Shown in pieces: positions 19,579 through 63,118 of a stretch of 64,000 bases of DNA (position 1 is the stretch's first letter; each line of letters starts with the position of its first letter). A program made the translations under genes and the position numbers. The notes under the pieces were generated by a model. It had not been told where the DNA came from. It did no database searches and was given only the letters and a program-made list of their open reading frames with translations. The stretch is from Balneolaceae bacterium. Lineage in GTDB: Bacteria; Bacteroidota; Rhodothermia; Balneolales; Balneolaceae. The stretch is taken from contig VEMX01000048.1 of NCBI GenBank assembly GCA_009711805.1, forward strand, positions 1-64,000, given 5' to 3'.

Positions 19579-19916
19579 AGGAAATAGAGTGGGCAGATTT
19601 TGAACAGGTAGAATTGAGAGTGGGAACTATAGTGCAGGTACAAGTTTTTCCTGAAGCTCATAAGCCTGCCTACAAATTGACCATCGATTTTGGGAAGGAA
19701 ATAGGAACTAAAAAATCATCGGCTCAAATTACCGATTTGTATACTCCCGAAGAACTGGAAGGAAAACAAATAATAGGAGTTGTTAATTTTCCTCCTAAAC
19801 AAATCGGACCTTTTATAAGTGAATGCCTGGTCACGGGGTTTATGAATGGTGATGAAGGAGAAGTAGTTCTGGCTGTCCCAGACAAAGAATGCATGAGTGG
19901 ACTAAAGCTCATGTAA
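19575..19916 (+). CDS. CsaA-like tRNA-binding domain protein
   Basis: This 113-residue protein consists of one OB-fold tRNA-binding domain of the EMAP II/CsaA type. Visible features are the DFEQVELRVGTIVQVQVFPEA start, KPAYKLTIDFG, the QITDLYTPEELEGKQIIGVVNFPPKQIGPFISE stretch typical of CsaA, and the EVVLAVPD end. CsaA proteins are dimers reported to have chaperone-like and tRNA-binding activity. It is translationally coupled to the upstream 57-residue membrane protein. Confidence 0.9.
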   Translation: MKEIEWADFEQVELRVGTIVQVQVFPEAHKPAYKLTIDFGKEIGTKKSSAQITDLYTPEELEGKQIIGVVNFPPKQIGPFISECLVTGFMNGDEGEVVLAVPDKECMSGLKLM

Positions 19917-19971
19917 CATTTGGTTGTAGGTTTTCGTGTATTCAGTTGTTTTCTAATAAAGTTATATAACA

Positions 19972-20439
19972 ATGAGAATAACAGGCCTCTTAGTTACCGG
20001 AACTATAAGTTTAATAATTTTCACTTGTTCATCAGCGTTCGGGCAAGAAACTTCTTATCCAGAGAAAGGAAATCAATTTTCCTCCTTCATTTTAAAGATC
20101 CATGGCATAGACAAGATAAAGGGAGAGGTGAGAATTGCTGTTTTCAATTCTAAAGAGACTTATGCAGATAAAAAAGATTCTTTTCGCTCTGCGGTAGTTT
20201 CGGTAGAAAGTGATACGGTTAGTTGGGAATTCGCTGAGTTCCCTTTTGGCGAATATGCTATTGCCGTATACCACGATGAAAATATGAATGGTGAGATGGA
20301 CACGAATCTTCTGGGAATCCCTAAAGAAGATTATGGCTTTTCAAATAACGCACGCGGGCGTTTTGGGCCAGCTTCCTGGGAAGATGCCAGGTTTATAGTC
20401 TCCCAAAGCATAAACACGCATTCAATAAAACTCAATTAG
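19972..20439 (+). CDS. DUF2141 secreted protein
   Basis: This 155-residue exported protein has a signal peptide cleaved near SSAFGQ (residue 25). The DUF2141 family signatures are visible: GEVRIAVFNSKETY, the AIAVYHDENMNGEMDTNLLGIPKEDYGFSN core, and ARGRFGPASWEDARF. Function of the family is unknown. Its stop overlaps the end of the convergent DUF4097-type gene by 8 bases. Confidence 0.88.
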   Translation: MRITGLLVTGTISLIIFTCSSAFGQETSYPEKGNQFSSFILKIHGIDKIKGEVRIAVFNSKETYADKKDSFRSAVVSVESDTVSWEFAEFPFGEYAIAVYHDENMNGEMDTNLLGIPKEDYGFSNNARGRFGPASWEDARFIVSQSINTHSIKLN

Positions 20440-21811: not shown

Positions 21812-22299
21812 GATTGTTCCCGGTTGATTAATAAAAGTTCTTTATAGAAATCCAGTTTAGTAGCATATAAACGGTTGAGGTTATATTTTTTTGCAGGGGT
21901 GATTCCGTTGATTAACATTTCATTTTTGAGTTCCTCAATCAGTCGGTCTATTTCGCGAATAGCCGAAAATGTAGACTCCATAGATGTTCTGTCTTGCTCA
22001 TTAGCCTGTTGTAGAATCACCGGAGCTACTTTATCTAATCGTTGAGTTGCTTCATTCAGCCCCTCATAAACTTCTTGCTGTTGAGTCACAGTCCCCCCCA
22101 TAAAGCTGGAGGCAGTTTCATATATTCCAATAACAGCGAACAACAGGATTACGGCAGCAGCATTTCCCAGCCAAAAGCTTTTCCAATGAAATAAGACAGG
22201 AGGGGAGTGATGGTTTTTCAGCTTTGTGGATATAGTATTCCACATAGCTTTCTTTTCAGCCGCATCAGGGTAATCGGATGAGTTATATAGTTCATTCAT
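21808..22299 (-). CDS. One-TM protein in sigma-factor operon (putative anti-sigma)
   Basis: This 163-residue protein has a soluble N-terminal segment of about 45 residues, one membrane helix (about 48-68), and an alpha-helical, probably periplasmic, C-terminal part. It lies between an ECF sigma gene and a DUF4097-type gene, overlapping both by 4 bases. This position and topology fit an anti-sigma factor, but I see no ZAS (HxxxCxxC) motif. The N-terminal segment with AAEKKAMWNTISTKLK resembles the short sigma-binding regions of FecR-like or other non-ZAS anti-sigmas. Function is inferred from context only. Confidence 0.6.
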   Translation of the reverse strand: MNELYNSSDYPDAAEKKAMWNTISTKLKNHHSPPVLFHWKSFWLGNAAAVILLFAVIGIYETASSFMGGTVTQQQEVYEGLNEATQRLDKVAPVILQQANEQDRTSMESTFSAIREIDRLIEELKNEMLINGITPAKKYNLNRLYATKLDFYKELLLINREQS

Positions 22300-22853
22300 A
22301 GTTCTAAAATTTGGCGTAATTTTTTTTTAGCTCGATGTAATATCACTCGTGATGTTCCTTCAGAAATTTGCAACATACTTCCAATTTCGCGGTGAGAATA
22401 TTCTTCAGCAATATGAAGGAGAAATACGATTTTTTTGTCAGGATCCAGTTCTTTAATAGCGTCTTTAGTTTCAGTCCAGTTGTTTGGTACTTCTGTGTCG
22501 GGATCATGGTTATCCCCAAACTTCTGAGGTTCAAATTCTTCAAAATCAATGTTGTTTCTCATATCCATCCTCATTTCGTTTAGAGCAATGGTATAGAGCC
22601 AGCTTTTAAACCGGGATGCAGCCTTGAAAGAATCCAACTTGTCAAAGGCTTTGATAAAACTGCGTTGGGTCCATTCCCGTACTTGTTCCCGATTGTCAGA
22701 GAACTGAGACATGAAAGCGAATAAGGCATCAACATGGCTTTCATACAGTTTCCTAAAAGCCTGTTGGTTGCCCGCTTTTGCCTGAGATATAAAATCTGAT
22801 TCTTCTTCAGCCGAGATCAATGATGAATTCCTGTTTTTATTATTGAGATGCAA
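22296..22853 (-). CDS. ECF RNA polymerase sigma factor
   Basis: This 185-residue extracytoplasmic-function sigma factor has region 2 at about residues 28-98 (AFRKLYESHVDALFAFM, REWTQRSFIKAF, FKSWLYTIALNEMRMDMRN) and region 4 at about 125-183 (IKELDPDKKIVFLLHI, EEYSHREIGSMLQISEGTSRVILHRAKKKLR). It lies at the head of an operon with a putative anti-sigma and a DUF4097-type protein, and is divergent from a MacB-type permease gene 132 bases away. It probably controls its own operon, as usual for this class (inference). Confidence 0.9.
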   Translation of the reverse strand: MHLNNKNRNSSLISAEEESDFISQAKAGNQQAFRKLYESHVDALFAFMSQFSDNREQVREWTQRSFIKAFDKLDSFKAASRFKSWLYTIALNEMRMDMRNNIDFEEFEPQKFGDNHDPDTEVPNNWTETKDAIKELDPDKKIVFLLHIAEEYSHREIGSMLQISEGTSRVILHRAKKKLRQILEL

Positions 22854-56859: not shown

Positions 56860-57021
56860 TCACTCCTTTTCGCGAATGACTCCTGTTGGGATTTCGGATA
56901 GGTAGTCTTTTGCAAATGCTTCGTTGTTCAAAGCAATTGCTAACCGCTCAATGCGTTCACTTATCTTTCCTATACCCGAGTAAAATTTTTCTGTAACCTT
57001 TGTTGTTCTCCTCAGTGTACA
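56860..57021 (-). pseudogene. Decayed coding remnant without a start
   Basis: On the minus strand, 53 codons stay open and end in TGA, with peptide-like content (KISERIERLAIALNNEAFAKDY and SEIPTGVIREKE) of normal amino-acid composition. A stop lies immediately upstream and there is no ATG, GTG or plausible TTG at its head. It may be the tail of a former gene, or chance. No family recognised. Confidence 0.35.
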
Positions 57022-57043
57022 TTAACGGGACAAAACAGCTACG

Positions 57044-57610
57044 GTGGATTCAACTTCGGATAAGGCAATTATGATGAAAGTTAAGCAGGGAGACCTTGAT
57101 AAATTAGGTCTGCTGTTTGAGCGATATAATCGTCCGTTGTTTAGTTTTTTCTACCGTATGTGCAAAGAGTCTCAGCTTAGCGAAGATCTTGTTCAATCGG
57201 TATTCGAGCGGATGCTCAAGTATCGAAGTACATATTCAGGCAATGGAGCTTTTACTACCTGGATGTTCAGCATTGCAAGAAATGCTCATATCGACCATTA
57301 CCGGAAACAAAAGAGAAGGGCAGAGTCGGATGAGGAACTTGATGAAGAACGTGTAGGGACAGCTCCACCTGAGTATGCAGAAAGAGATGGAAAAATACGC
57401 AGGAAAGAAATCCTGGAACAAGCTCTCGACCAGCTGGATGATGATAAAAAAGAAGTCATAGTATTGAGCCGGTATGAAGGGCTTAAATACAAAGAGATTG
57501 CAAAAATACAGGACTCCACTGAAGGAGCTGTAAAAGTAAAAGTCTTCAGGGCAATAAAAGAATTAAGAGATATTGTAACCACACTTAGTGAGGAATACAG
57601 TGATGAATGA
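57044..57610 (+). CDS. ECF RNA polymerase sigma factor
   Basis: This 188-residue extracytoplasmic-function sigma factor has region 2 at about 12-85 (GDLDKLGLLFERYNRPLFSFFYRM, EDLVQSVFERMLKYR, FTTWMFSIARNAHIDHYRKQKRR) and region 4 at about 120-180 (ALDQLDDDKKEVIVLSRYEGLKYKEIAKIQDSTEGAVKVKVFRAIKEL). The GTG at 57044 is preferred over the ATG at 57071 because the DxAIMMKVKxGD segment before it is typical of this subgroup. It starts a five-gene unit and overlaps the next gene by 8 bases. Confidence 0.9.
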   Translation: MDSTSDKAIMMKVKQGDLDKLGLLFERYNRPLFSFFYRMCKESQLSEDLVQSVFERMLKYRSTYSGNGAFTTWMFSIARNAHIDHYRKQKRRAESDEELDEERVGTAPPEYAERDGKIRRKEILEQALDQLDDDKKEVIVLSRYEGLKYKEIAKIQDSTEGAVKVKVFRAIKELRDIVTTLSEEYSDE

Positions 57611-58391
57611 AAAACATGAACAACTGATTGCAGATTATCTGAAAGGAAATCTGGATGAACAGGGCAAACAAAAGATAGAAGAACTGCTGGCTAAAGGTGA
57701 AATTGACTTTATTGATTTCAGGGCTATGGAGCAGCTATATGATGAGCTTAAGATGGTACCAGTTCCTGAACCGGGGCCGCAGCAAAGTAGTCGCTTCTAT
57801 GAAATGTTGGAAAAGCAAAAACAGTTATCGGCCCTTTCCATCACGGAACGTATAGCTGTATTCTTCAAAAAAGGGATAGCCCAACTCACCATGCCACGCC
57901 TGGCTTACGCCTGCCTTTTATTAATAGCAGGAGGATTCATTGGTGTCCAGTTTGGAAACAATGATGAGGAAATGGAGCAGCTTTCTACCCAGATGCAGGA
58001 GATGCGTCAAATGATGATGATCTCAATGTTAGAAGGCCCTTCAACTACCGATCGACTGAAAGCTGTACATATAAGCTCTCAGATAACCTCGGCCGATGAC
58101 CAGGCTGTGAGTGCGCTGTTATTTACCTTGAATAACGATCCCAGCATAAATGTTCGGGTTCAGGCTATAGAAGCGTTAAAACGATGGGGCAAGGATGAGT
58201 ATGTTCGGAAAGGATTAATCAATGCTATTGCAAAACAGGAATCCCCCATTGTAATTATTGAGCTGGCAGATGCCATGATTGAGCTGGAATTGAAAAACTC
58301 GGCCAAAGAATTTAAGCAGCTGTTGGAAGAACGAGAGTTAGAATATAATGTAAAACAAAAATTGGAAAGCAGTATTGCTGCATTAAGTTAA
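57603..58391 (+). CDS. Putative anti-sigma factor with TM helix and HEAT repeats
   Basis: From the ATG at 57603 the protein has 262 residues: a short cytoplasmic N-terminus (HEQLIADYLKGNLDEQGKQKIEELLAKGE, resembling zinc-finger-type anti-sigma heads but without His/Cys ligands), a membrane helix at about 97-115 (MPRLAYACLLLIAGGFIGVQFG), and a periplasmic part with HEAT-like repeats from about 140 (DDQAVSALLFTLNNDPSINVRVQAIEALKRWG, KGLINAIAKQESPIVIIELADAMIELE). The ATG overlaps the sigma stop (ATGAATGA). Anti-sigma function is inferred from topology and position. Confidence 0.7.
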   Translation: MNEKHEQLIADYLKGNLDEQGKQKIEELLAKGEIDFIDFRAMEQLYDELKMVPVPEPGPQQSSRFYEMLEKQKQLSALSITERIAVFFKKGIAQLTMPRLAYACLLLIAGGFIGVQFGNNDEEMEQLSTQMQEMRQMMMISMLEGPSTTDRLKAVHISSQITSADDQAVSALLFTLNNDPSINVRVQAIEALKRWGKDEYVRKGLINAIAKQESPIVIIELADAMIELELKNSAKEFKQLLEERELEYNVKQKLESSIAALS

Positions 58392-58398
58392 CAGAGCT

Positions 58399-59316
58399 AT
58401 GAAACATGCATTGATGGTATTATTACTCGGAGTTATAAGTACAACTGTTGTAGCTCAGTCTTCAGGAAACCCCAATAAGGTAACTGAAGATATAGAGATG
58501 AAAATTTCAGCTCAGGAGTTTAACAAACAGACATTGTTCCATATGAAGAATGTACATGGGTCGGTCAGAGTAAAAGGCTATGGCGGTGATGATATTATGA
58601 TCAGCGGTGAAAAAACTGTTTGGAAGAAAAAGGGGACATTGACGAGAGAAGATCTCGACAAAATATATCTGGAGAAGGTGATGGCACAAAATAATTTGTA
58701 TGTATATATACAGGCTCCGGGGGTAGAGGTAAATATTGATGATGGTAAACTACATTACCATGTGCATATGGGAGACTGGGAGGATAGCAGATGGGGTAAA
58801 TGGGAGGACAAAAAGAAGTCGGATCTCAGGTTTGAGTTTGAGCTTGAATTAAAAGTACCCCATGCCCTTATGGCATCGTTTTCTACCATAAATGGGGGAG
58901 AGGTGGTAGTTGAAAACATGACCAATGGTGTTCATGCAAAGAATGTAAATGGCAAGATTGTACTAAAAGAGATTGCAGGGCAAACAGAAGCAACTACAGT
59001 AAACGGAAATATTGAGGTGTGGTTTGCCAAAAGTCCCACATTAGATACCTGGTTCAGGACAGTGAATGGTACAATTAAGGTTTATTCGCCAAAAGATTTA
59101 TCCACTGTTGTAACCTTTAAGAGTTTACACGGTGACCTTTATACAGACTTCGAAAATATTGAACATTTGCCCAATCGACTGAACAAGAAATTAAATGATG
59201 AAGGCACACGATATAAAATTCATAAAACAGCTCCCATAAAAATAGGGGATGGGGGACCAGAGATGAGTTTTAAATTGGTAAATGGAAGCGCCTACATCAG
59301 GCAAAGAAAATCATAA
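58399..59316 (+). CDS. Secreted DUF4097-like protein, first of pair
   Basis: This 305-residue exported protein has a signal peptide to about residue 20 (TVVAQ). The C-terminal half repeats a NG-x-(I/D/V) motif: INGGEVVVE, VNGKIVLKE, VNGNIEVWF, VNGTIKVYS, LHGDLYTDFE, VNGSAYIRQ, spaced about 18-25 residues, consistent with a beta-helix or beta-sandwich of DUF4097 type. It has an HG/NG turn similar to the next gene. It lies 7 bases after the putative anti-sigma and 20 before its paralogue. Confidence 0.78.
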   Translation: MKHALMVLLLGVISTTVVAQSSGNPNKVTEDIEMKISAQEFNKQTLFHMKNVHGSVRVKGYGGDDIMISGEKTVWKKKGTLTREDLDKIYLEKVMAQNNLYVYIQAPGVEVNIDDGKLHYHVHMGDWEDSRWGKWEDKKKSDLRFEFELELKVPHALMASFSTINGGEVVVENMTNGVHAKNVNGKIVLKEIAGQTEATTVNGNIEVWFAKSPTLDTWFRTVNGTIKVYSPKDLSTVVTFKSLHGDLYTDFENIEHLPNRLNKKLNDEGTRYKIHKTAPIKIGDGGPEMSFKLVNGSAYIRQRKS

Positions 59317-59336
59317 TCAAAAAAAGAAATAAGACA

Positions 59337-60146
59337 ATGAAAAAGGTGAAATATTATCTATTAGCGGCATTATTTATAGGCTTGTTGTCAGGTTCAGTAT
59401 ATGCACAGAGTGACTTAAAAGTACCACTTTCGAATCCCGGAAAAGCAGGTAAACTTATAATCAGTACTGTCTTTTCAGATGAAATTGTGATACGCACCCA
59501 TAATGATGATAACAATGTTGTTATTAATTACAGCGGAGACGACGGCGATGATGAAGGTCGTGCCTATAAGGATGGTCTTCGACGTATTTCTACCGGAGGG
59601 GTGGGATTGGAAGTAACCGAAGAGGGTAACGAGGTTCGCATTCAAACAAGCCCAATGCCAAGTGATCTGGAATTAGTGGTATATGTACCTAAAAAGTTTT
59701 CATTAAAACTAAATGCAACACAGGGAGATGTAGAAGTGGACGGGCTGGAAGGAGAGCATGAAATAAGTGCTGTAAATGGCGATATAGATCTCACGAACCT
59801 GTCAGGTTCGGCCGTGGTGAATAGTGTGAACGGCGATATTAATGTAGATTTCAATCGCATTACACCAGATGTACCCATGTCGTTTACGGGAGTAAATGGG
59901 GATATGAAAGTAACCTTGCCGGCTAATGCCAAATTCTCAGTTAAGATGAAGACCGAATGGGGCGATATCTATACAAACTTTGATATGGAAATTAATCGCT
60001 CATCGAATGCAAAAGAGGTGAGTGAGGATGACGGCCGTTATAAGGTTGCAGTAAATAAATGGTTATACGGAGATGTGAATGGAGGGGGGACAGAGTTCTT
60101 GTTTAAAACCCTTCATGGAGATATTTCAATTCGTAAAAAAGAGTAA
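59337..60146 (+). CDS. Secreted DUF4097-like protein, second of pair
   Basis: This 269-residue exported protein has a signal peptide ending near residue 24 (SVYAQ). The repeat turns TQGDVEVDG, VNGDIDLTN, VNGDINVDF, VNGDMKVTL, EWGDIYTNFD and LHGDISIRKKE are clearly of the same type as the previous gene, so the two are probably tandem duplicates. The ending GDISIRKKE is mirrored by SAYIRQRKS in the first copy. Both may form periplasmic or surface fibres or scaffolds; this is inference. Confidence 0.78.
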   Translation: MKKVKYYLLAALFIGLLSGSVYAQSDLKVPLSNPGKAGKLIISTVFSDEIVIRTHNDDNNVVINYSGDDGDDEGRAYKDGLRRISTGGVGLEVTEEGNEVRIQTSPMPSDLELVVYVPKKFSLKLNATQGDVEVDGLEGEHEISAVNGDIDLTNLSGSAVVNSVNGDINVDFNRITPDVPMSFTGVNGDMKVTLPANAKFSVKMKTEWGDIYTNFDMEINRSSNAKEVSEDDGRYKVAVNKWLYGDVNGGGTEFLFKTLHGDISIRKKE

Positions 60147-60149
60147 ATC

Positions 60150-60169
60150 GAAGTAACGAAAATTACTTC
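60150..60169 (+). other. Stem-loop in the operon between DUF4097-like and DUF5916 genes
   Basis: GAAGTAA and TTACTTC form a 7-bp perfect stem with a 6-base loop 3 bases after the stop of the second DUF4097-like gene. No T-rich tail follows, so it is more likely an RNA-stability hairpin or weak terminator than a strong stop. Confidence 0.4.
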
Positions 60170-60264
60170 CACTCGTCTAACAGGAAAATAATAAAGAGAA
60201 GGTTATAGGCACTACCCCGAAAGGGAAATATAGGCTTCAGAATACTCAAAAATACTTAAATCCT

Positions 60265-62973
60265 ATGAAGAAAGTTTTACTATCCATGCTATTGGTATGT
60301 CTTTGTTACGGGGTTAATGCCCAAAATTCTTACCAGTCTACAAGGAATATAATTAGTATGAATGATCTCAGATATGGAGATCAGCCCAACCCTAAAATGA
60401 ATGCTGTACGTATTGATGATGGCTCCATCATTGATCTTAATGGCGGATTGGATGAATCAGTATGGGCTCTTGCCCCGGCTGCAACCAGGTTTACACAAAG
60501 AACTCCAAATGATGGAGGCAAACCTTCTCAAAAAACAAAAGTTAAGCTTTTGTATACAGATGAGGCCGTATATGTTGGTATTATGGCTTATGACACTGCA
60601 CCCGATTCAATCATGAGTTCGCTCTTTAGGAGAGATGGTTCTGAAGCCAGTGACTGGGTATATGTAAGCTTCGATAGCTATAACGATCAGCGAACGGCTT
60701 TTACTTTTGCTGTAAACCCCAGAGGAGTCCAAAAAGATGTGTTGTACTATGACGACACCAACGAGGATATCCTTTGGGATGCGGTGTGGCAGGCAAAAAC
60801 AAAAATATTGGAGAATGGATGGTCGGCAGAGTTACGTATTCCTTTGTCTCAACTTCGGTTTAGTTCAAAAAATAATGAACAGAGCTGGGGAGTGAATTTC
60901 CAGCGGAGAGTTGCCAGAAATGGCGAAGTCTCATTCTGGGCGCCTACATCACAGGATGATAATGGAATGGTTTCTTTATTTGGCCGACTTGAAGGAATAT
61001 CAAATCTTGAAGAGCCCCGCCGACTTGAAATTTCTCCATATGTATCCAGTAAAATAATACGGGTTCCGGAATTTGAGACCTCAAATCCATACGTAAGCCG
61101 AAATGAATTTACAGGTAATATAGGTGGAGATATAAAATACGGACTCACCTCGGACTTAACCCTTACCGCAACAATTAACCCGGATTTTGGTCAGGTCGAA
61201 GCTGATCCTGCCGTAATCAACCTTTCGGATAACGAAAATTTCTTTGCTGAGAAACGACCATTCTTCCTTGAGGGGAATGATATATTCCAGTTTGGAGAAA
61301 CCAAAACATTTAGCAAGGCGGGAAATCCACTTACGTTTTATACCAGAAGGATAGGCCGTAGCCCGCAGGGAAGTAGTGGTCGTGCAGAAGTAAATGCAGA
61401 ATATACGGATGCCCCAGGTTTTACAACGATAGCAGCTGCTGCTAAGGTAAGTGGTAAAACGGCCAATGGATGGTCGCTGGGCTTTATGGATGCTTATACT
61501 CTTAAGGAAAATGCTGATTTCACTACACCAAATGGAACAGAAGGGGCGTTTGCAGTAGAACCTGCAACCAACTATATGATAGGAAGAGCTAAAAAAGATT
61601 TTAATGGGGGAAATACATATTTCGGTGGATTTGCCAGCGCAGTAAACCGCAATATTGATGGAACCTATTTTGAAGATTACCTCAGATCATCAGCCTATGT
61701 TGGTGGGGTAGATTTTGAGCATAATTTTAACAATCGCAACTGGGTAGCAAGTGGTAATGTTGTTTTTAGCTCTGTTTATGGTTCTGCAGAAGCTATAGAG
61801 CGTACACAACGTTCTCCGGTTCGGCGATATGACCGTGTAGATTCTGATTATCTGTCGGTGGATCCAAATAAAACAAGTCTTAGCGGGTATGCCACTGAGT
61901 TGAGTATTCAAAAAAGCGGAGGGGAAGACCACTGGATGGGTTCTTTCACCTATTCGGATGTCAGCCCTGGCTATGAAACAAATGATCTTGGATTCCAGAA
62001 TCGCGCAAATTATCGGATGATGCATGGAGGCGTAGTTTACAAAGAGACAAATCCTAAATGGTTACAGCGATATGAAGTTTGGTTGTACACCGCACAAGGT
62101 TGGAATTATGACGGAGACCGAATTAACAATAATATAAGTACCGGTGGGTTCCTGAGCTTTAAGAATCTGTGGACTTTAAATTATAATGCAAATTATAATA
62201 TGAAGCAGTATATGGATAGCATAACCCGTGGGGGGCCTATTATGGAGCGTCCGGAAGACATCAATTTTAATATGAACCTGAATACAAACCAAAATAGGAA
62301 AGTCTCCTTCCACTTAGGTTCTTTCCAGCGTAAAGATGTAGAAGGTGAATTTGACCACAACTTCTGGGGTGGGATAACCATATTACCAACTACTTTTATT
62401 CAGCTATCTGTTTCTCCGCAATTTTCTTATCAAAATGATACCGATCAATATGTAACTACGGTAGCAGATGACAATGCCAACCAAACATTTGGGAACCGAT
62501 ATGTATTTGCGGATATCAAACAGAGATCGTTATCAGCTAATATTCGTTTAAATTGGACATTTTCTCCAACCATGAGTTTGCAAACATATATCCGGCCATT
62601 TATCGCTTCAGGTGATTATTCAGCATTCAAAGAGTTTAAGAAAGCCAAAACTTTTAACTTCAACGAATACGGCACCGAACAGGGTACTATTTCAAAAGAA
62701 GAAGGAGAGTACACGGTAGATCCTGATGCTGAAGGAACTTCACCTGAATTTAGTTTTCGTGATCCGGATTTCAATTTTAGATCCGTTCAGGGAAATGCAG
62801 TATTCCGTTGGGAATATACTCCCGGATCAACGCTATTCCTGGTATGGCAGCAGCAACGCAGCGACTTCTACCAAGGCGGAGATTTTCAACTGGGAAGAGA
62901 TTTTAACGGTTTATTCTCTGCCAAACCAACCAACATATTTTTAGTGAAACTGAGTTATTGGTTTGGAAGTTAA
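60265..62973 (+). CDS. DUF5916 outer-membrane beta-barrel protein
   Basis: This 902-residue protein has a signal peptide to about residue 20 (GVNAQ), followed by an N-terminal CBM9-like domain (about 55-240: IDLNGGLDESVWALAPAATRFTQ, TKVKLLYTDEAVYVGIMAYD, TFAVNPRGVQKDVLYYDD) and a long DUF5916 region whose aromatic/polar strands suggest an outer-membrane barrel. It includes NPDFGQVEADPAVINLSDNENFFAEKRPFFLEG. The end KLSYWFGS is a plausible barrel terminus. It follows the DUF4097-like pair and is probably under the same sigma factor. Some relatives are thought to be carbohydrate-related receptors, but the ligand is unknown. Confidence 0.87.
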   Translation: MKKVLLSMLLVCLCYGVNAQNSYQSTRNIISMNDLRYGDQPNPKMNAVRIDDGSIIDLNGGLDESVWALAPAATRFTQRTPNDGGKPSQKTKVKLLYTDEAVYVGIMAYDTAPDSIMSSLFRRDGSEASDWVYVSFDSYNDQRTAFTFAVNPRGVQKDVLYYDDTNEDILWDAVWQAKTKILENGWSAELRIPLSQLRFSSKNNEQSWGVNFQRRVARNGEVSFWAPTSQDDNGMVSLFGRLEGISNLEEPRRLEISPYVSSKIIRVPEFETSNPYVSRNEFTGNIGGDIKYGLTSDLTLTATINPDFGQVEADPAVINLSDNENFFAEKRPFFLEGNDIFQFGETKTFSKAGNPLTFYTRRIGRSPQGSSGRAEVNAEYTDAPGFTTIAAAAKVSGKTANGWSLGFMDAYTLKENADFTTPNGTEGAFAVEPATNYMIGRAKKDFNGGNTYFGGFASAVNRNIDGTYFEDYLRSSAYVGGVDFEHNFNNRNWVASGNVVFSSVYGSAEAIERTQRSPVRRYDRVDSDYLSVDPNKTSLSGYATELSIQKSGGEDHWMGSFTYSDVSPGYETNDLGFQNRANYRMMHGGVVYKETNPKWLQRYEVWLYTAQGWNYDGDRINNNISTGGFLSFKNLWTLNYNANYNMKQYMDSITRGGPIMERPEDINFNMNLNTNQNRKVSFHLGSFQRKDVEGEFDHNFWGGITILPTTFIQLSVSPQFSYQNDTDQYVTTVADDNANQTFGNRYVFADIKQRSLSANIRLNWTFSPTMSLQTYIRPFIASGDYSAFKEFKKAKTFNFNEYGTEQGTISKEEGEYTVDPDAEGTSPEFSFRDPDFNFRSVQGNAVFRWEYTPGSTLFLVWQQQRSDFYQGGDFQLGRDFNGLFSAKPTNIFLVKLSYWFGS

Positions 62974-63004: not shown

Positions 63005-63031
63005 AAGGGATGCCATTTGCATCCCTTTTTT
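63005..63031 (+). terminator. Rho-independent terminator after the DUF5916 gene
   Basis: AAGGGATGC (63005-63013) pairs with GCATCCCTT (63019-63027) over a 5-base loop and runs into T. It closes the sigma - anti-sigma - DUF4097 - DUF5916 unit. Confidence 0.88.
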
Positions 63032-63118
63032 TAGCTGTATACCTAAGCAGGAAACAGAAATATATATTGGTTCAGGCTATACATCAGTCATAAGTTTTAG
63101 TATGTTAGTTTGATAGAG

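Follow-up and report, generated by a model that had tools for sequence, protein, structure and literature searches.

In the window, by which we mean the whole 64,000-nucleotide stretch of Balneolaceae DNA analysed here, a forward-strand operon encodes five proteins (Table 1): an ECF sigma factor, an anti-sigma with one TM segment and a HEAT domain at its C-terminus, a pair of secreted Toastrack proteins, and a DUF5916 protein. All five genes of this 57-63 kb locus are present with the character that a preliminary description had given them, as judged by Pfam, profile and AF2 evidence, and the terminator said to close the locus is real, a hairpin followed by T7, which was overlooked by a consensus scan and found by inspecting the sequence. 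The start cited for the locus, 56860, takes in noncoding DNA; the predicted promoter begins at 56992.

Table 1. Genes and signals of the five-gene module and of the second locus in the window
Feature	Position	Strand	Basis
Whole module, five genes	57044-62973	+	Gene content; closed by strong terminator
Predicted autoregulatory ECF promoter, -35 TGTAACC, 15-bp spacer, -10 AGTGTA	56992-57019	+	Phylogenetic footprint
ECF sigma factor, 188 aa	57044-57610	+	Pfam Sigma70_r2 4e-17, Sigma70_r4_2 3e-14; NCBIfam sigma70-ECF over cut-off
Anti-sigma, one TM	57603-58391	+	AF2 model, Foldseek, profile vs PDB, alignment
Toastrack A, secreted, 305 aa, signal peptide ending VVAQ	58399-59316	+	hhalign, NCBIfam, Pfam
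Toastrack B, secreted, 269 aa, signal peptide ending VYAQ	59337-60146	+	Pfam DUF4097 9e-16
Predicted internal ECF promoter of DUF5916 gene, AGTAACG-N15-CGTCTA	60152-60179	+	Upstream-region motif
CBM9-like domain + DUF5916 outer-membrane beta-barrel, 902 aa	60265-62973	+	Pfam DUF5916 2e-67, CBM9_1 3e-4
Intrinsic terminator GGGATGC-CATTT-GCATCCC-T7	63007-63032	+	Read directly from sequence
Second-module ECF sigma	22296-22853	-	Pfam
Second-module one-TM anti-sigma-like protein, 163 aa	21808-22299	-	Conserved 36-53% in 8 relatives
Second-module secreted Toastrack/DUF4097 protein, 459 aa	20432-21811	-	DUF4097 2e-17, three stretches

The sigma gene starts at a GTG that is kept in relatives, and its product has regions 2 and 4 only, without region 3 (Pfam), as ECF factors do; the second ECF trait is the -35/-10 promoter upstream, predicted to be autoregulatory. 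This promoter, which can also be written TGTAACCTTT-N12-AGTGTA, ends 24 bp before the GTG. The motif TGTAACC-N15/16-[ACG]GTGTA was found in 31 of 33 Balneolaceae sigma upstream regions, against 0.005 expected in shuffles, and exact sites number about one per module-bearing genome and zero in genomes without the module. This distribution is strong evidence, at the sequence level, that the sigma autoregulates its own operon. Among the modules the promoter motifs are class-specific, with -10 types AGTGTA, CGTCTA and GCATCT. Genome scans allowing one mismatch gave about 20 extra sites against 5 in the control. Among orthologous targets are a gene for an outer-membrane-barrel-like protein, shared by three genomes of one genus, and one for a lipoprotein of the beta-lactamase family, shared by three genomes of another; a further Toastrack gene was hit once. 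A small envelope regulon is predicted for the module sigma; in the window's own genome it is essentially the operon itself. A two-mismatch scan of that genome gave a count equal to the control, so only sites with zero or one mismatch were used. Two one-mismatch sites there (C10 and C42) look like coding-sequence coincidence and non-target and were rejected. A sigma-70 promoter scan returned fewer sites than in shuffles and is irrelevant here, and Rfam gave no RNA family match.

The anti-sigma gene overlaps the sigma gene by 8 nt, and its product consists of a helical anti-sigma-like domain (aa 1-77), a TM segment (97-116) with basic residues ahead of it and acidic ones behind, a coil (117-146) and a HEAT domain (147-262) that is predicted to be periplasmic. 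Pfam places the HEAT match below its threshold (HEAT_2, E=1e-4). Solved alphaRep/HEAT proteins match this C-terminus when its profile is compared with the PDB (E=3e-22), Foldseek also returns alphaRep, and the AF2 model has eight helices here, mostly at a pLDDT of about 90 or higher, arranged as tandem antiparallel pairs with HEAT-like sequence; the earlier claim that the anti-sigma of one locus carries HEAT repeats is thereby confirmed. Conservation within the protein is highest in the HEAT domain, at 0.51 versus 0.36 for the N-terminal domain. The latter, which forms four helices in the AF2 model, has no match to an anti-sigma family in Pfam or NCBIfam; we propose that it binds and holds the sigma.

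Both Toastracks have a Sec signal peptide with a conserved AQ site and no further TM segment. Toastrack B enters the Toastrack family (DUF4097/DUF2154/DUF2807) over the Pfam cut-off, and Toastrack A, with only E=0.005 to DUF4097 when searched alone, does so by profile-profile comparison to B (hhalign 100%, E=4e-41). NCBIfam relates A to the C-terminal portion of LiaX (4e-8) and B to LiaG (3e-14). PspC is absent from the operon, and neither protein fits the PSP/Lia arrangement proposed in PMC11237479, in which Toastracks are cytoplasmic and fused to or near a TM segment or PspC.

The five-gene order is preserved in 27 of the 34 Balneolaceae loci examined, and a core of four genes, namely the sigma, the HEAT anti-sigma and both Toastracks, is found repeatedly across Bacteroidota. 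A Toastrack gene adjoins the HEAT anti-sigma in 62 of 62 testable loci, 54 of them with two Toastracks, a count biased in its Balneolaceae subset, which was first selected by a Toastrack query; among the 28 loci found by the anti-sigma profile alone, a Toastrack gene is next in 27 of 27 testable. In one locus (L119) the order is permuted to sigma-Toastrack-anti-sigma-Toastrack and the gene set is retained. ECF and DUF4097 genes are common in Bacteroidota, and an ordinary ECF/anti-sigma pair could come to lie beside beta-rich secreted genes by chance or through annotation. Such an artefact is extremely improbable, being contradicted by this linkage, by conservation across many families and by a promoter motif found once per genome. 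The preliminary description had staked its reading on conserved gene order in relatives and on control of the downstream genes by the sigma; computationally, neither was contradicted, since the order is conserved and each module class has, directly upstream, a sigma-type promoter of its own. Its interpretation is supported in part. Both paralogous module classes are present in several genomes, adjacent and divergent at three loci (L068, L069 and L114), and the principal anti-sigmas of the second class group together in one supported clade (97/95), which suggests an old duplication with HEAT anti-sigmas and Toastrack pairs staying together.

The family match of the DUF5916 protein is accompanied by a barrel fold (AF2 pLDDT 79; Foldseek matches to the MtrB barrel at 8e-11 and to CBM9 7nwn at TM 0.71), and the suggestion that it is an outer-membrane component holds for the predicted fold. 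It is not part of the core. Outside Balneolaceae, DUF5916 lies within three genes in only 4 of 28 loci, which indicates that the core works without it, and by gene content it is mostly a Balneolaceae addition. GTAAC-N15..17-CGT[CG] was found in 18 of 38 DUF5916 upstream regions against 0.06 expected, and twice in the window against 0.04 expected; the leader of the window's DUF5916 gene folds no better than shuffles. We found no literature on DUF5916. The modelled large barrel with its CBM9 fold and the five-gene operon of Balneolaceae could be read as a FecA/FecR-like trans-envelope relay, in which DUF5916 would bind external carbohydrate and signal through the Toastracks to the anti-sigma. 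We consider this improbable, given the anti-sigma's lack of a FecR family match in Pfam and NCBIfam and the promoter-like site that DUF5916 has of its own, and the relay was downgraded because the core is without DUF5916 in most families.

What the sequence itself shows is the set of genes and their order, the domains, the signals for secretion and the promoter motif; a cell-envelope stress sensor, found across Bacteroidota, is the most likely role of the operon. We lean, with some reserve, towards an autoregulated ECF sigma/anti-sigma envelope-stress module in which the Toastracks act as co-inhibitors or sensors gating the HEAT domain of the anti-sigma. From these features we infer a course of sequestration, HEAT-Toastrack contact, signal, proteolysis and feedback. 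In the resting state the single-TM anti-sigma would use its N-terminal domain to keep the sigma at the inner membrane, and its periplasmic HEAT input domain would be bound and held by the co-encoded Toastrack pair, stabilised or shielded from cleavage; a complex of the Toastracks with the anti-sigma is plausible going by their near-perfect co-occurrence, and the conserved NNDxSxNVR face is the candidate site of contact. An envelope insult would draw off the Toastracks or alter their binding, and the anti-sigma would then be inactivated, probably by regulated proteolysis; the genome has two M50 site-2-protease genes. The freed sigma would transcribe its own operon from TGTAACC-N15-AGTGTA, which would refill the Toastrack/anti-sigma brake as negative feedback and also raise the DUF5916 barrel, together with a small number of further envelope genes in relatives.

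It may also be that the Toastracks are outputs rather than sensors. Autoregulated ECF operons often carry effectors, and the same promoter is predicted to drive other envelope effectors, one further Toastrack gene included. The sigma and HEAT anti-sigma would then form the switch, HEAT would sense another ligand (a misfolded outer-membrane protein, lipid or peptidoglycan fragment), and envelope scaffolding or repair would fall to the Toastracks and DUF5916 as effectors. We regard this as unlikely, though a serious contender: a Toastrack adjoins the HEAT anti-sigma almost without exception, even where DUF5916 is missing and even where the order is permuted, while a pure effector would be expected to swap out more often.

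The co-inhibitor or sensor role that we favour for the Toastracks is drawn by analogy with RseB, a secreted periplasmic partner that binds the anti-sigma RseA (PMC4598750), and with the LiaX C-terminus, which inhibits the LiaFSR regulator (PMC11601895). Like the present module, Sigma-E/RseA/RseB (rpoE-rseABC) unites an ECF sigma, a single-TM anti-sigma and a secreted partner in one operon (PMC4598750); here, however, the input is a HEAT domain, and two Toastrack beta-helices stand in the place of RseB. No RseA or RseB family match was found in the module (Pfam, NCBIfam), which is not a member of that system and may work similarly. The Firmicutes LiaFSR-LiaX/LiaG system also ties Toastrack/DUF4097 proteins to an envelope-stress regulator, but is a two-component system without a HEAT protein. 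The fold of Toastracks has been described before, as has their connection with envelope-stress regulators: in Ravi et al. 2024 (PMC11237479), Toastracks in Toastrack/PspC/PSP neighbourhoods are coupled to transcription regulators, a linked sigma factor among them, and proposed as protein-docking surfaces. They are predicted there to be cytoplasmic and are often TM-fused, which counts against a periplasmic model, whereas here a free secreted pair accompanies a HEAT anti-sigma; the present composition was not found in main-text passages of that paper. Class I anti-sigma (ASDI) ECF pairs resemble the module in their overlapping sigma/anti-sigma genes, in the single TM segment and in the N-terminal helices that the AF2 model predicts, but the present anti-sigma is not recognised by Pfam or NCBIfam anti-sigma models. 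We found no literature combining DUF4097, ECF and anti-sigma, nor, as far as our search went, an operon of this composition described as such, and the earlier statement that no well-characterised system has this composition is right.

A survey found recognisable ASDIs beside only about 6% of Bacteroidetes ECFs (PMC7406223). It is quite conceivable, if a little short of an even chance, that the modules are Bacteroidota-wide trans-envelope sigma switches, with an unrecognised anti-sigma family whose periplasmic HEAT domain is gated by a dedicated secreted Toastrack pair, present in two or more promoter-orthogonal copies that arose by ancient duplication, and that they supply part of these 'missing' anti-sigmas. 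Through this module a conserved family of predicted anti-sigmas can be named, together with its input domain; a Toastrack pair is predicted to lie beside it in the periplasm, which bears on what Toastrack proteins do and in which compartment. With a promoter present roughly once per genome, sensing, binding and feedback are directly testable in a culturable Bacteroidota strain.

The locus at 20.4-22.9 kb, previously called a second partial module, is real: its three genes form a module that 8 of 8 relatives retain and that has its own promoter motif. It is a cousin of the first module and not a partial copy, as its 163-aa anti-sigma-like protein has no HEAT domain. That protein gave no Pfam or NCBIfam match of note. 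Elsewhere, on a different contig, lies a closer paralogue that does combine a HEAT anti-sigma with two Toastracks. The second-module sigma probably starts at a TTG at 22820, as relatives start at the corresponding TTG; its listed ORF start overlaps the predicted -10.

The window lies within contig 16 of a 4.08-Mb genome, and all five genes that the preliminary description had claimed at 57-63 kb were found there, closed by a terminator.

Features of the main module, the second locus and the class-2 module of the same genome (L-numbers denote gene neighbourhoods read in genomes)
Feature	Position	Remark
Promoter-like motif TGTAACC-TTT-N12-AGTGTA	56992-57019	5' of main-module sigma gene
ECF sigma factor	57044-57610	
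One-TM anti-sigma-type protein	57603-58391	8-nt overlap with ECF sigma gene
Toastrack A, secreted beta-repeat protein	58399-59316	
Toastrack B, secreted beta-repeat protein	59337-60146	
Predicted ECF-like promoter of DUF5916 gene	60152-60179	
DUF5916 protein	60265-62973	902 aa
Terminator	63007-63032	3' of DUF5916 gene; seven-pair stem, seven T
Sigma, 163-aa one-TM protein, 459-aa Toastrack protein	22853-20432	minus strand
ECF-like promoter GTAACATTTGGTTGTAGGTTTTCGTGTA	19913-19940	~30 bp 5' of small secreted protein gene
Small secreted protein gene	19972-20439	convergent with second module
Sigma, HEAT anti-sigma, two Toastracks	L013:4204-7122	second HEAT anti-sigma module of own genome (G000), contig 67

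While no curated anti-sigma model matched the one-TM protein, an alignment of 20 homologues and an AF2 model gave four N-terminal helices and one TM segment (aa 97-116), with a coil leading to a C-terminal domain of eight helices, most of it with pLDDT of ~90 or more. By fold and by sequence profile (3e-22), this domain resembles designed alphaReps of the HEAT type, in line with the periplasmic HEAT repeats previously claimed for one anti-sigma; the periplasmic side is suggested by the positive-inside rule, since basic residues precede the TM segment and acidic residues come after it. Within the protein, conservation is highest in the HEAT domain (0.51 mean pairwise identity vs 0.36 in the N-terminal domain). 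Recognised anti-sigmas are scarce in Bacteroidetes (PMC7406223), which fits an overlooked family of this kind. Toastrack A alone falls below the Pfam cut-off, but profile comparison makes it a clear paralogue of Toastrack B (E=4e-41), as the claim of a tandem paralogue had it, and the nearest NCBIfam families of the pair are LiaX and LiaG. By-eye reading of the alignments gives each a Sec signal peptide whose AQ cleavage site is conserved; neither has a second membrane segment. Ravi et al. define the Toastrack domain, note links to regulators, one sigma factor among them, and predict a cytoplasmic location (PMC11237479); in contrast to those Toastracks, the present pair is secreted.

The gene set, gene order, secretion signals and promoter conservation of the module are evident from sequence comparison. 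With Toastrack A as query against 92 family genomes, 34 Balneolaceae neighbourhoods were read, of which 27 had the complete five-gene order, so that the proposed order is conserved in relatives; sigma/anti-sigma overlaps and short intergenic gaps occurred throughout. These loci were picked with a Toastrack query, while the phylum-level test (392 genomes) used the anti-sigma profile as sole query and matched well outside the family. There, a Toastrack gene stood directly 3' in 27/28 HEAT anti-sigma loci, the 28th being at a contig end; two Toastracks were present in 22/28, and DUF5916 lay within three genes in 4/28. Over all 63 loci the linkage held in 62 of 62 testable cases, within one phylum (Bacteroidota) and among genomes that are non-independent samples; E-values and shuffle figures ignore shared descent. 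One neighbourhood (L119:4710-7944) had the permuted order sigma-Toastrack-anti-sigma-Toastrack with the gene set intact.

TGTAACC-N15/16-[ACG]GTGTA occurred in 31/33 Balneolaceae sigma upstream regions (expected 0.005), GTAAC-N15..17-AGT was retained in 10/18 distant class-1 modules (the main-module type; expected 0.09), and TGTAA[TC]-N14..18-CGTCT in 7/10 modules of a paralogous class 2 (0 in shuffles), all against first-order Markov resamplings. In the module at 20.4-22.9 kb and in its relatives, TGTAAC is followed ~16 bases downstream by a GCATC -10. The -10 motifs thus differ by sigma class, each class having its own type, the pattern that would be expected from autoregulation with orthogonal promoters. 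Scanning 89 genomes with TGTAACCTTT-N13-GTGTA gave 31 sites in 29 genomes, about one per module-bearing genome, 29 of them directly 5' of the sigma gene, with zero sites in module-free genomes and 2 matches for the reversed control. Allowing one mismatch added ~20 sites over 34 genomes (vs 5 in the control), including sites before candidate regulon genes in six neighbourhoods (L208, L209, L214 and L203-L205). The candidate targets, named by sequence reading without a family search, include two orthologous groups, each from three genomes of a single genus: an outer-membrane-barrel-like gene in one genus and, at identical spacing, a beta-lactamase-family lipoprotein in the other; one site precedes a further Toastrack gene. 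Both module classes are present together in several genomes, side by side and divergent in L068, L069 and L114. The main class-2 anti-sigmas form one clade spanning families (support 97/95), and the contig 67 module, with a CGTCTA-type promoter, belongs to this class.

We favour a co-inhibitor model, in which the Toastracks would bind the HEAT domain and so fix the stability of the anti-sigma, while the sigma would replenish its own brake and raise a small envelope regulon. Such action would be similar to that of RseB, which sets RseA stability by binding (PMC4598750), and to the corresponding part played for LiaFSR by the LiaX C-terminus (PMC11601895). Within this model we infer that the anti-sigma binds the sigma, that HEAT domain and Toastracks are in contact and that proteolysis takes part, along with the signal and the feedback sign; two M50 proteases are encoded in the genome, and in all control genomes as well. 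The main rival explanation is that the Toastracks are outputs only. As to novelty, judged relative to the literature examined, existing ECF classification groups may already include these sigmas.

An outer-membrane role of DUF5916, as proposed in the preliminary description, is well supported by the predicted fold (AF2 pLDDT 79, Foldseek), namely a CBM9-like domain at the N-terminus (TM 0.71 to 7nwn) and, after it, a large barrel closest to MtrB; sequence search found no solved homologue. The motif of its predicted promoter was matched in 18/38 upstream regions (expected 0.06), so that, besides read-through, the gene can presumably answer the same or another ECF sigma. In seven neighbourhoods (L048, L052, L053, L055, L056, L065 and L067), all from the one genus to which it is confined, a conserved RNA-like element, GGAGC[T/C]GTAA-hairpin-GGGATAGGACTCC, stands once per genome in the 5' leader of the DUF5916 gene. 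It has 13 3' bases that never vary, shows a compensatory change from CTG/CAG to CCG/CGG, and matches no Rfam family. A tandem second DUF5916 gene occurs in L012, L051, L057, L058, L060, L062 and L064, in several loci 3' of a terminator-like hairpin; its upstream motif differs (TTGTAACA-N-TCTCT), and it is therefore perhaps under another ECF sigma.

The locus at 20.4-22.9 kb had been taken for a second partial module. Its sigma/one-TM/Toastrack set stands, being kept together in 8/8 relatives, but a partial copy of the main module was rejected because the locus has no HEAT domain; by its sequence it is rather a related design of ECF sigma, one-TM protein and secreted Toastrack. The neighbouring small secreted protein gene is a possible extra target.
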